The position numbers and the translations under genes were made by a program. 64,000 nucleotides of DNA from Lota lota (taxonomy: Eukaryota > Chordata > Actinopteri > Gadiformes > Lotidae): positions 2,237,191-2,301,190 of the forward strand of contig JACYXH010000473.1 of the NCBI GenBank assembly GCA_026745465.1, written 5' to 3'. Numbering within the stretch: position 1 is the stretch's first letter; every line of letters begins with the position of its first letter. Of the stretch, positions 3,682 to 6,893 are shown piece after piece. A model generated the notes under the pieces. The model was not told the DNA's origin. It saw only the letters and a program-made list of their open reading frames with translations, and made no database searches.

Positions 3682-4443
3682 ACTGCCTCTGTCACTATAG
3701 TTTATTTCAGGTATTTGCACTTTTTTGTCTCTCTGCAGCTTCAGCTTCAAGCCTTTCCAATTCCTCAATGCAACACTCTTGTTCTAGTAGTACTTCTAGA
3801 GTAGCTTCATTGGCAGCAACTTCAGCACGACTTGAATGTCTGGAGCTGCTTTGAGCGTGAGAGGACTTAGTGCATTGGGATTTGATACTTATCTTGTCTT
3901 AGGCTACAGACTTAAATATAGACGATGTCGCCCTGTTGCCTCGTTGTTCATCTCCTCCACCGTTATCTGCTGTCTCAAAACGATCTTTTGCAGTTTGGAT
4001 GATCTTCCTGGTTACTGCATCACAGATGTCAATTCTGCGACGTGTATCATGGTCAAGGTTATCTATGCGCCTTAACTCATCATAAGCAATGTTCAGATTC
4101 TCTGAGGCAGCACTTACTTTGCTTATGTGTTCATGTAGCAGGTTGTTTGAGCATTGTCCACTCAAGGCTTGCTTGGCGTCTTTAGCAATAGCCTTCCACT
4201 CATAACTCACAGTGAAACGGTGAGCAAATCTTCTTATTTGCTCATTGTTCAGTTCCTTTTTCTGTTAACTTTCGGTCTCTTTGGCTTCTTTGTGGTTCTT
4301 GTGATAAAGTGTGGTCATTAGCTCTTGTGCCTTCGGTAGCCTGTGGCTACCTGTGGCTACCGATCAGCCATGTCTATGCACTGCTGCTCTATACTTTCAC
4401 CTACATTAACCTGCTTTCTCCCAGAGGTAAGACTAGGCTCTGA
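3682..4443 (-). pseudogene. BEL/Pao retrotransposon gag, N-terminal fragment (broken)
   Basis: On the minus strand a frame opens at about 4443 with MSEPSLTSGRKQVNVGES. It continues, with stops and frame changes, through a helical region at 4210-3899 containing YDELRRIDNLDHDTRRRID, then LLEQECCIEELERLEAEAAE near 3780-3720. Charged coiled-coil text of this kind is typical of the N-terminal Gag region of BEL/Pao LTR elements. In-frame stops show it is not functional. It lies in the same orientation as the zinc-knuckle and protease fragments at 5158-6319 but is separated from them by an inverted segment. Confidence 0.6.
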
Positions 4444-4972
4444 CATTGTTACTTGGTGTACTTAAATTTGGGTTAAATCTAATTTGGCCTGTAGCTAAGT
4501 GATTCAGCTCCCATTAGCTATTCACATTTATACTAATTCTACCACTAATATTATTTTTTAGAACATATTCACTTCTACTTCACACAAATCAATATCACGT
4601 TGTTCTATGAAATGCAAAATTCAGTCTCTTGGTTGTAGCTTAGTTAACACTTAAACATACACACAACTATACCGTATGAATATGAAGGCAAAAATGTGTC
4701 AGTCTCTTGTGGGAAATAGTTTAAGCTTCTTTGCATCAGCTGGATTCATGGTAAGGCGCCTGGATTCTTCTGTGGATGCTGCGGCTGCGTAAATGTCAGG
4801 AGCAGATGCACACTCTTGGATGTAGAGATGTCCCTTCTTGTCCATGGATCACGGCTCTTTGGTACTGTCTTCCTTGTCTACTCATGCAGAGCAGATGAGT
4901 TCTCACTGTAGCTCCTCCAGTGACAGGCATGAGGCAAGAGATCTTGATTTGTATACAGGGTTGACAAGTCAA
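4444..4972. other. Retroelement-flanking sequence, no gene seen
   Basis: No supported coding sequence. The stretch lies between the Gag N-terminal fragment and the left arm of the inverted repeat. It is probably element 5' leader or LTR material, but I could not establish LTR ends. Confidence 0.4.
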
Positions 4973-5157
4973 GAGAAGGAACGACAGATCGTTCACAAGA
5001 GAGGGTGACAAAACCACCACGCGAGGTAACATCTAACAGAGTTATCCAGAATGTTAAAGGCACCCATACATCCTCAGTCGTTCCTGTGTGGTTGTCCACT
5101 ACAAGTAAGCCAAATCATGAAGTTCTTGTGTACGCTCTTCTCGATACACAGAGTGAC
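4973..5157 (+). repeat. Left arm of a perfect 185-bp inverted repeat inside the BEL/Pao block
   Basis: This segment is the exact reverse complement of 5870-6054, read base by base. It encodes the start of the protease region (MTKPPREVTSNRVIQ) on the plus strand, whereas the other arm encodes it on the minus strand. The right end (5153-5157, GTGAC) overlaps the start of a 42-bp direct repeat, so the inversion junction sits on a 5-base microhomology. Confidence 0.9.
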
Positions 5158-5869
5158 CTGACTTCTCACAAAAAACACAGCTTGTGGAGGAAGCCTTTTC
5201 ATCTGAGTTAGTTGCTAGTACCTTTGCTCCGAGAGCTCTGTTCTTTAAAACCTTGATCTGATCATCTTCAGCAGGTTTCAGAGCATGGAGAGATGTTATT
5301 GGGTTATTAGCAATCTTAGCTTCACGTGTGAGGAACTTTACAAACTGCTGGAAGCTTGGGAATGTGTGACTTTCTTCCTCCACTTCTATGACCTTTCTGT
5401 TCCATCTCGAGGTCAGCCAGTCTGGAAGCTTTGCAAGTAACTTCTGGTTCTCATTGCAGTCATTAAGTACTTTGAGGCCTCTGATCTGAGTCATAGCAGC
5501 CTCACAGCTCCGAAGAAAACCAGCAACCACTTGTCTTGGTACAAGAGCTTGAGGACAGTTGTAGCCAATTAGTAGGCCGATGTCACAGCCCTGCAGAGGA
5601 GTAATTTCATCTGCAATGTGCTCAAGATGAGACCATGCCTTGGCAGTCTCTGGTGTGGGAATCTGATCTCTGTTTGCAGGGATGAATTCTCTTGAGTAAG
5701 TTACTGGCAGGTAGATTATCTTATCGGAGTGAAATCCTCTTATTTGTAGATCAGTCAGCCTTCTGCTAGGCACCACTGTATTTCTTGAAGCCATTGTGGA
5801 GAGCTTTAACTGGACTGGTTCATTTTTTGTGTGAAGCGCCTTTGCTGTCTCTTCAAGGATGAAGGTCGT

Positions 5870-6054
5870 GTCACTCTGTGTATCGAGAAGAGCGTACACA
5901 AGAACTTCATGATTTGGCTTACTTGTAGTGGACAACCACACAGGAACGACTGAGGATGTATGGGTGCCTTTAACATTCTGGATAACTCTGTTAGATGTTA
6001 CCTCGCGTGGTGGTTTTGTCACCCTCTCTTGTGAACGATCTGTCGTTCCTTCTC
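5870..6054 (-). repeat. Right arm of the 185-bp inverted repeat
   Basis: Exact reverse complement of 4973-5157, with a spacer of 712 bp. This arm is in the original orientation within the gag-to-protease reading direction, so the left arm is the inverted copy. Confidence 0.9.
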
Positions 6055-6277
6055 CATTTCTCCATCAGTCCTTGTTGACATTCCTCTTTCTTTGCTGCGA
6101 TTATCGTGTAGGCAGGTTGGATGTCCTTTCTCACAAGTATCACAGATCCTTCTATTTTCACACTCCTTTGAGCGATGGCCAGGCTTCAGACAGCCAAAGC
6201 ACAGCTTCATCCCTTGAACAAACTTGACTCGCTCAGAGATGGTTTTATTCATAAATTTCCAACACTTGTGTAGACTG

Positions 6278-6319
6278 TGACCTGACTTCTCACAAAAAAC
6301 ACAGCTTGTGGAGGAAGCT
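6278..6319 (-). repeat. 42-bp direct repeat of the Gag zinc knuckle
   Basis: Identical to 5154-5195 over the first knuckle ([13 protein letters not shown]). One copy joins the inverted arm (5153-5157) and the other abuts the 5' end of the RPS15 retrocopy. Both therefore mark junctions in the rearranged element. Confidence 0.85.
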
Positions 6320-6847
6320 TTTTCCCCGGAAGACCAGACAAGATGGCGGACGTTGAGATCAAGAAGAAGCGTACCTTCAGGAAATCCACCTACAGAGGTG
6401 TGGATCTTGACCAACTCCTGGACATGTCCTATGAGCAGCTTATGCAGCTGTACTGCGCCCGCCAGAGGAGAAGGCTTAACCGTGGCCTTCGCCGCAAGCA
6501 GCAGTCCCTCCTGAAGCGCCTGCGCAAGGCCAAGAAGGAGGCTCCCCCAATGGAGAAGCCTGAGGTGGTCAAGACTCACTTGAGAGATATGGTCATCCTG
6601 CCCGAGATGCTCGGCTCGATGGTCGGCGTGTACAACGGCAAGACCTTCAACCAGGTGGAAATCAAGCCTGAGATGTGTGGCCACTATCTGGGAGAGTTCT
6701 CCATCACCTACAAGCCAGTCAAGCACGGTCGCCCTGGTATTGGAGCTACACACTCTTCTCGGTTCATCCCTCTGAAGTAGACTGGCTGTTTTCGTTATAT
6801 AAATAAAAATGGGCTCGCCACAAAAAATAAATAAAAATAAAATAAAA
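6320..6847 (+). mobile_element. Processed RPS15 retrocopy, mRNA-derived block
   Basis: This block carries a short leader beginning CTTTTTCC (the 5'-TOP-like start of a ribosomal-protein mRNA), an uninterrupted coding frame, a short trailer with AATAAA at 6802-6807, and a decayed A-rich tail (about 6822-6847). The absence of introns plus the tail show it was copied from mRNA. No target-site duplication is visible; instead both edges abut BEL/Pao sequence. Confidence 0.85.
6343..6780 (+). CDS. rps15: Ribosomal protein S15 (uS19), intronless retrocopy with intact frame
   Basis: The 145-residue frame matches the full length of vertebrate RPS15, a uS19-family protein of the 40S head near the decoding centre and A-site finger. 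It opens [20 protein letters not shown], contains the conserved [14 protein letters not shown] and [14 protein letters not shown] stretches, and ends [17 protein letters not shown]. No frameshift or stop is present, so the copy is recent or under selection. One unusual residue is Cys in [14 protein letters not shown], where I expect Ile. The parental gene in vertebrates has introns; this one has none and carries an A-tail, so it is a retrocopy. I saw no clear promoter. Whether it is expressed is unknown. Confidence 0.9.
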
Positions 6848-6893
6848 GTGCAAATACCTGAAATAAACTTAAGTGACAGAGGCAGTTACACGT
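6848..6893 (+). repeat. Inverted copy of the BEL/Pao segment at 3682-3729
   Basis: About 46 bp here are the reverse complement of 3682-3729 with a few differences. The shared text directly follows the RPS15 A-tail. At 3724-3729 the corresponding strand carries a run of T next to the same GCAC. The whole 3.2-kb block is thus bounded by a short imperfect inverted repeat. Confidence 0.8.

Follow-up and report, generated by a model that had tools for sequence, protein, structure and literature searches.

The window analyzed here, 64,000 nucleotides of the Lota lota assembly GCA_026745465.1 (contig JACYXH010000473.1, positions 2,237,191 to 2,301,190 of the forward strand), contains a copy of the messenger RNA (mRNA) for ribosomal protein S15 (RPS15) enclosed by pieces of retroelement sequence, of which those carrying gag and protease are of the BEL/Pao type, a group of long terminal repeat (LTR) elements. 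Together they form a composite of 3,213 bp (3678-6890), whose first bases are TGTAACTG and whose last are CAGTTACA; in a longer extract, the start reads TGTAACTGCCTCTGTCAC and the end GTGACAGAGGCAGTTACA.

A copy of the RPS15 mRNA and its surroundings

The RPS15 copy (6318-6847, plus strand) runs from a 5' leader, beginning with CTTTTTCC, through a coding frame (6343-6780) to a 3' untranslated region with an AATAAA signal and a 26-nucleotide A-rich tail that includes four T's (6822-6847). The frame comprises 145 uninterrupted codons, matches the Pfam family Ribosomal_S19 (1.4e-35) and aligns end to end, without a gap, to chains of 40S ribosomal protein S15 in the PDB. RPS15 genes have introns, and the block is an uninterrupted copy of the spliced mRNA. 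The coding frame is preceded by GCTTTTTCCCCGGAAGACCAGACAAG; ribosomal-protein mRNAs start with pyrimidines. Six of the 145 residues differ from the best PDB chain (positions 4, 6, 15, 38, 90 and 112). At the last five of these the change is seen in the window copy only, the two PDB sequences compared being in agreement there; one entry, 7oya, we take to be a zebrafish structure. The frame is open, but the usual constraint on RPS15 is probably no longer acting. With the left boundary of the block placed at 6310-6330 and the right at 6818-6850, direct repeats adjoining it were looked for, and there were no exact ones from 4 bp upwards and, at 80% identity, none from 8 bp upwards.

To identify the surrounding pieces, we searched protein databases with the minus-strand frame 5102-6064 and used the best 120 of its 269 relatives; a second search, with one of these proteins (P0092), contributed a further 101 among the best 120 of 141. 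Among the 120 from the first search, the named relatives come from fish and marine invertebrates, with fish topmost. Relatives carry DUF1759, and the nearest, from Coregonus clupeaformis (P0134), carries the Pao peptidase A17 domain as well, which identifies gag and protease as BEL/Pao-type. None of the gag and protease pieces of the window matches a Pfam family above its curated cut-off, the protease and zinc-knuckle models scoring below it. As for pol, none was recognized by eye in the reading frames of the composite, nor did the 221 proteins yield a pol-only match. An ordinary element would have a direct LTR pair with pol between; the composite has neither, its ends being inverted. The BEL/Pao label fits the source of the pieces and not the composite itself. 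With no recognizable U3 promoter, primer site or piece of pol, the composite should be unable to move and exist as one copy.

From left to right, a 43-bp terminus (3678-3720, minus strand) is followed by an A-run belonging to gag (3721-3726, minus) and by a gag N-terminal piece with stops (gag-N; 3727-4364, minus). Its protein shares 88% identity with P0134 over 4258-3710 and 4346-4248, and the match of another relative (P0158) extends to 4364. The 88% likeness of 3710-4346 to the whitefish (Coregonus) copy may point to a recently shared element, provided that the window is not itself from a close relative. An unplaced segment comes next (4365-4972, minus). It contains a short minus-strand frame (4705-4848) with no Pfam or PDB match and a single database relative (P0222), a protein of 68 amino acids from a 3,964-base metagenome contig, at 78% identity. 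Beyond it, the upstream protease region is present as an inverted copy (4973-5157, plus), identical at 185 of 185 positions to the reverse complement of 5870-6054. Two further minus-strand pieces complete the element part: gag-middle with the beginning of the zinc-knuckle region (5153-5527), whose initial GTGAC (5153-5157) is common to it and the preceding piece, and the zinc-knuckle region with the protease region (5528-6324), in natural order relative to each other. The last 48 bp of the latter (6277-6324) repeat 5153-5200 at 47 of 48 positions. The RPS15 copy then leads to a second 43-bp terminus (6848-6890, plus).

The order of these pieces was compared with that in the 221 proteins by tblastn against the composite, counting a protein if both regions were matched at E 1e-6 or better. 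Without exception, gag-N precedes gag-middle (29/29), the zinc knuckle (17/17) and the protease (14/14), gag-middle precedes the zinc knuckle (101/101) and the protease (85/85; 49/49 in the first 120 proteins alone), and the zinc knuckle precedes the protease (105/105). Contrary to this order, the composite has the protease before gag-middle. Read along the minus strand, it consists of one end (antisense), RPS15 (antisense), zinc knuckle and protease (sense), gag-middle (sense), the upstream protease region (antisense), segment 4365-4972, gag-N (sense) and the other end (sense). The gag and protease pieces are thus permuted and partly inverted relative to the related proteins. About 200 residues of P0134 between gag-N and gag-middle, including most of its DUF1759 match (325-465), are missing.

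The mosaic has at least six joints. At 5153-5157 the protease parent reads CAGAGTGACACG, the gag parent CTGTGACCTGAC and the composite CAGAGTGACCTGAC, so that GTGAC is a 5-nucleotide overlap common to both parents; overlaps of at least 5 nucleotides occurred at 637 of 100000 random joints. This is the only joint with both parents inside the window. At the 5' joint of RPS15, gag reads GAAGCCTTTTCATC and the composite GAAGCTTTTTCCCC, and the two repeat copies diverge at CTTTTTC and CCTTTTC. Because C and T at this site both leave the Lys of gag unchanged, CTTTTTC may have been the donor's sequence. At the gag-N joint, which lies within CAAAAAAG, P0134 continues AERQKVLDTK, whereas the composite departs from gag after AERQK into GTGCAAATACC. 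The tail of RPS15 ends in ATAAAA and is followed by GTGCAAATACC exactly as at the gag-N joint: both ends of the composite have equal polarity and an equal break point, an A-run and then GTGCAAATACC. At the joint from protease to gag-middle, near 5528, the composite reads GTTGCTGGTTTTCTTCGG where P0134 has QEFADFLRSC, and TTGCTG may possibly have been common to both parents. At 4972/4973 one parent only is identified.

A preliminary description of the locus had placed BEL/Pao sequence on both sides of an intact, intronless, A-tailed RPS15. The tail and the 145-codon frame bear this out, 'intact' applying to the open frame and not to the protein, given its six differing residues. On the left, the flank is BEL/Pao-type Gag; on the right, 6848-6890 is recognized as the composite's terminus and not as BEL/Pao by homology. 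Both edge observations of that description hold: the segment after the tail does have an opposite-strand copy at an A-run of gag (6848-6890 inverted at 3678-3720, 41/43), and the CTTTT/CCTTTT coincidence at the 5' edge is where 6277-6324 and 5153-5200 (47/48) part. Microhomology, which it proposed to seek at every joint, is found at the GTGAC joint, the one whose parents both lie in the window.

A single insertion in a resident inverted-repeat element

The outer 43 bp of the composite are inverted copies of each other (3678-3720 and 6848-6890, 41 of 43 positions identical), contained in a 47-nucleotide inverted pair with an E-value of 1.4e-15. On either side stands CGTCT (3673-3677 and 6891-6895); equal outer 5-mers were found in 229 of 205347 random TGT...ACA pairs of the window. 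Around both copies lies a resident, foldback-like element, whose left part (3206-3677) has inner arms at 3494-3536 and 3594-3636 (37/43) and which resumes at 6896-6929. When the composite and one CGTCT are removed in silico, 51 bp across the joint (3661-3677 joined to 6896-6929) match 3206-3256 in inverted orientation (41/51, E 1e-9); while the composite is present, the alignment shrinks to 42 bases of this match (6888-6929). From the restored inverted repeat it follows that the composite came in as a single insertion and duplicated 5 bp of the target. The earlier statement that there is no target-site duplication therefore holds for the RPS15 block and was dropped for the whole.

A 5-bp duplication around a single insertion is as expected from the integrase of an LTR element, a reading supported by these edges, and suggests that an integrase acted here. 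Target duplications of BEL/Pao elements measure 4-6 bp. In a survey of BEL/Pao elements (PMC3118150), neither 'target site' nor 'TSD' occurs, and our search of the open-licence literature found no paper on BEL/Pao target duplications.

The composite as a probable product of aberrant reverse transcription

Taking these observations together, segment 3678-6890 is probably one integrase-type insertion of a mosaic complementary DNA (cDNA) made by a BEL/Pao element. At both ends the polarity is the same: in RNA sense, an A-run is followed by a 43-bp end that has AATAAA and finishes in TTACA. This is what minus-strand starter DNA would give, and we infer that the termini are R-U5 ends of the element's LTR, the left with its sense on the minus strand and the right in opposite orientation. 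Such an LTR end at either terminus would call for two starts of cDNA synthesis. What follows RPS15 on its 3' side is accordingly best read as a putative LTR end at which cDNA starts, rather than as internal gag.

Reverse transcription in BEL/Pao elements proceeds in a transfer RNA (tRNA)-primed order. As a tentative model, plausible without being quite probable, two starter cDNAs may have moved to A-runs and fused head-on, leaving a U5 edge at both termini that integrase accepted. We infer such a starter step, and the order of switches, as follows. Two minus-strand starter cDNAs, short tRNA-primed copies of R-U5 from the U5 edge, would have 3' ends finishing in T's. Rather than with the element RNA's 3' R, they would pair with A-runs, one within gag RNA and the other in the poly(A) tail of RPS15. 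The second cDNA would then copy the RPS15 mRNA to its 5' end and, at the CTTTT run, change over to gag cDNA. More switches, one of them at GTGAC, would join both cDNAs into a duplex with a U5 edge at each terminus, an acceptable substrate that integrase could insert. The preliminary description had element cDNA switching onto RPS15 mRNA and back. The single insertion with its 5-bp duplication and TG...CA ends, the permuted and inverted pieces and GTGAC support the essence of that proposal; two cDNA starts would now be required, and at least six joints take the place of its two.

Several features weigh against an origin by integrase and BEL/Pao reverse transcription. The direct repeat is actually 9 bp long (TACACGTCT), because the TACA preceding the left CGTCT equals the final four bases of the composite; we favour the 5-bp reading for the symmetry of the ends and their TG...CA. 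The ends themselves mismatch at 2 of 43 bases, and the 43-bp end is present in no intact element among the sequences covered. A sample of 205 kb from this assembly (20 contigs, 21 loci) gave no match to the left end, the whole composite, its two flanks when joined or the 120 proteins of the first search, a result that carries little information on copy number. At five of the six clear joints one parent is lacking or known as protein only, and segment 4365-4972 has no placement in the element, although our model would put it between LTR and gag. Finally, the 185/185 identity of the inverted arms fits poorly with five RPS15 residue changes if both are of one age; conversion of the arms, or a donor mRNA that already carried differences, would reconcile the two. 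Scans of viral contigs returned no relatives of the protease piece or of our alignment A1, nor the terminal 21-mer, and Rfam over 3100-7100 gave only one match, below threshold, at 5582-5669.

Other origins would account for part of these observations. The same process may have operated with the common ends being the opposite LTR edge, the start of U3, copied from plus-strand starter DNA; the sequence does begin with TGT, like LTRs, and no intact copy of the element is among the sequences seen, but the polarity of the ends (RNA sense, A-run, AATAAA, final ACA) suits R-U5, and we consider a U3 edge unlikely. Just as unlikely is a Pack-TIR, in which the 43-bp ends would be the terminal inverted repeats (TIRs) of a DNA transposon that carried element and RPS15 pieces and was moved by transposase. 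The inverted ends and the short, fixed-length duplication CGTCT are as such a transposon would leave them, and animal Pack-TIRs with microhomology at their breakpoints are described in the consulted part of PMC8277862; however, A-runs stand at both ends, one of them an mRNA tail, the interior is permuted and RNA-derived, and no transposase piece was recognized in the composite. About equally unlikely is that several cDNA fragments were captured while a double-strand break was being repaired. Junctions of many pieces that overlap by a few bases speak for it, and retrotransposon and spliced-mRNA sequences are captured at breaks in mouse zygotes, according to an excerpt of PMC4516963, yet break filling would not be expected to leave so clean a duplication of 5 bp or such symmetry of the TG...CA ends.

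Two further explanations are more improbable still. A long interspersed nuclear element (LINE) could have placed an ordinary RPS15 retrocopy into a BEL/Pao copy already rearranged, as the full-length, A-tailed copy would allow. However, the block adjoins no direct repeat reaching 4 bp, and past the tail comes the terminus of the composite itself, whose break point equals that at the other end; we regard such an event as very improbable. The block likewise fails the defining test of a LINE-made processed pseudogene, in which a target duplication should stand immediately beside the A-tailed copy: the 7-20-bp duplication that would have spoken for one was looked for and was absent, and the distinction from LINE products drawn in the preliminary description is upheld. 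The least probable origin is an assembly or library chimera. Such artefacts typically yield chimeras of several parts, and the assembled sequence is our sole basis, but a false join is not expected to bear a duplication and to restore a resident inverted repeat once removed.

Known systems and the rest of the window

LTR-mediated retroposition in animals was reportedly treated by Tan et al. in Genome Research in 2016. According to the portion consulted of a review (PMC5408686), LTR elements switch template at short similarities onto packaged host mRNA, and the resulting retrocopies have been reported in zebrafish, chicken and mosquito. The composite resembles these cases in that a host mRNA was probably copied via template switches and now lies between stretches of element sequence, the right flank being putatively LTR, as part of one insertion with CGTCT around the whole. 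It differs from the cases in that portion by having one 43-bp end twice, in opposed orientations, where they have a pair of direct LTRs, by an RPS15 copy that spans 5' leader to tail, and by an element part that is permuted and inverted. LTR-mediated retrocopies being already known, the composite would be a variant with the same end at both sides.

In yeast, Ty1 likewise reverse-transcribes cellular RNAs, which are then incorporated into the genome (PMC7175516, in part). Element class and host are different there, and Ty1 retrosequences lie at rearrangement sites, whereas the short duplication at our locus suggests integrase. LINE pseudogenes and chimeras, as presented in an extract of PMC2104539, share the A-tailed intronless copy and the multi-part template-switch chimera inserted as a single unit; unlike them, the composite has no flanking 10-20-bp repeat, and the RPS15 tail is not at an insertion edge. 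Similar in the aberration itself are proviruses of human immunodeficiency virus type 1 (HIV-1) with inversions or asymmetric LTRs, where strand transfer goes astray, occasionally with inversion, and the products are still integrated; the sections of PMC9278108 considered describe no host mRNA and no provirus with a U5 end at both sides. In the titles and abstracts of the open-licence literature searched, we found no description of a U5/U5 insertion carrying a host mRNA.

The pick-up of host mRNAs by LTR elements has so far been inferred mostly from finished copies. The present locus seems to preserve the steps: cDNA start points, jump targets and integration of a duplex with one end twice. It offers a non-LINE route for retrocopies and a searchable signature, namely short TG...CA inverted ends, each at an A-run, flanked by a duplicated target of about 5 bp, which would allow such events to be tallied in other genomes. 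If the proposed origin is true, U5/U5 insertions would be missed by searches for ordinary paired LTRs; if it is also recurrent, LTR elements may capture whole host mRNAs guided by poly(A), leaving such insertions behind.

Elsewhere, the window contains a remnant of a Tc1/mariner-type transposase (38901-39542, minus strand; Pfam HTH_Tnp_Tc3_2) and two exon-like frames, one for an alpha/beta hydrolase (16871-17335, plus; Abhydrolase_1) and one for a protein kinase (34447-34866, minus; Pkinase). Two tandem arrays, at 9804-10748 and 10777-11241, have units of about 204-219 bp and of 155 bp, respectively, and CA/GT and GA/CT microsatellites are very dense at 1-3000 and 32900-33300.

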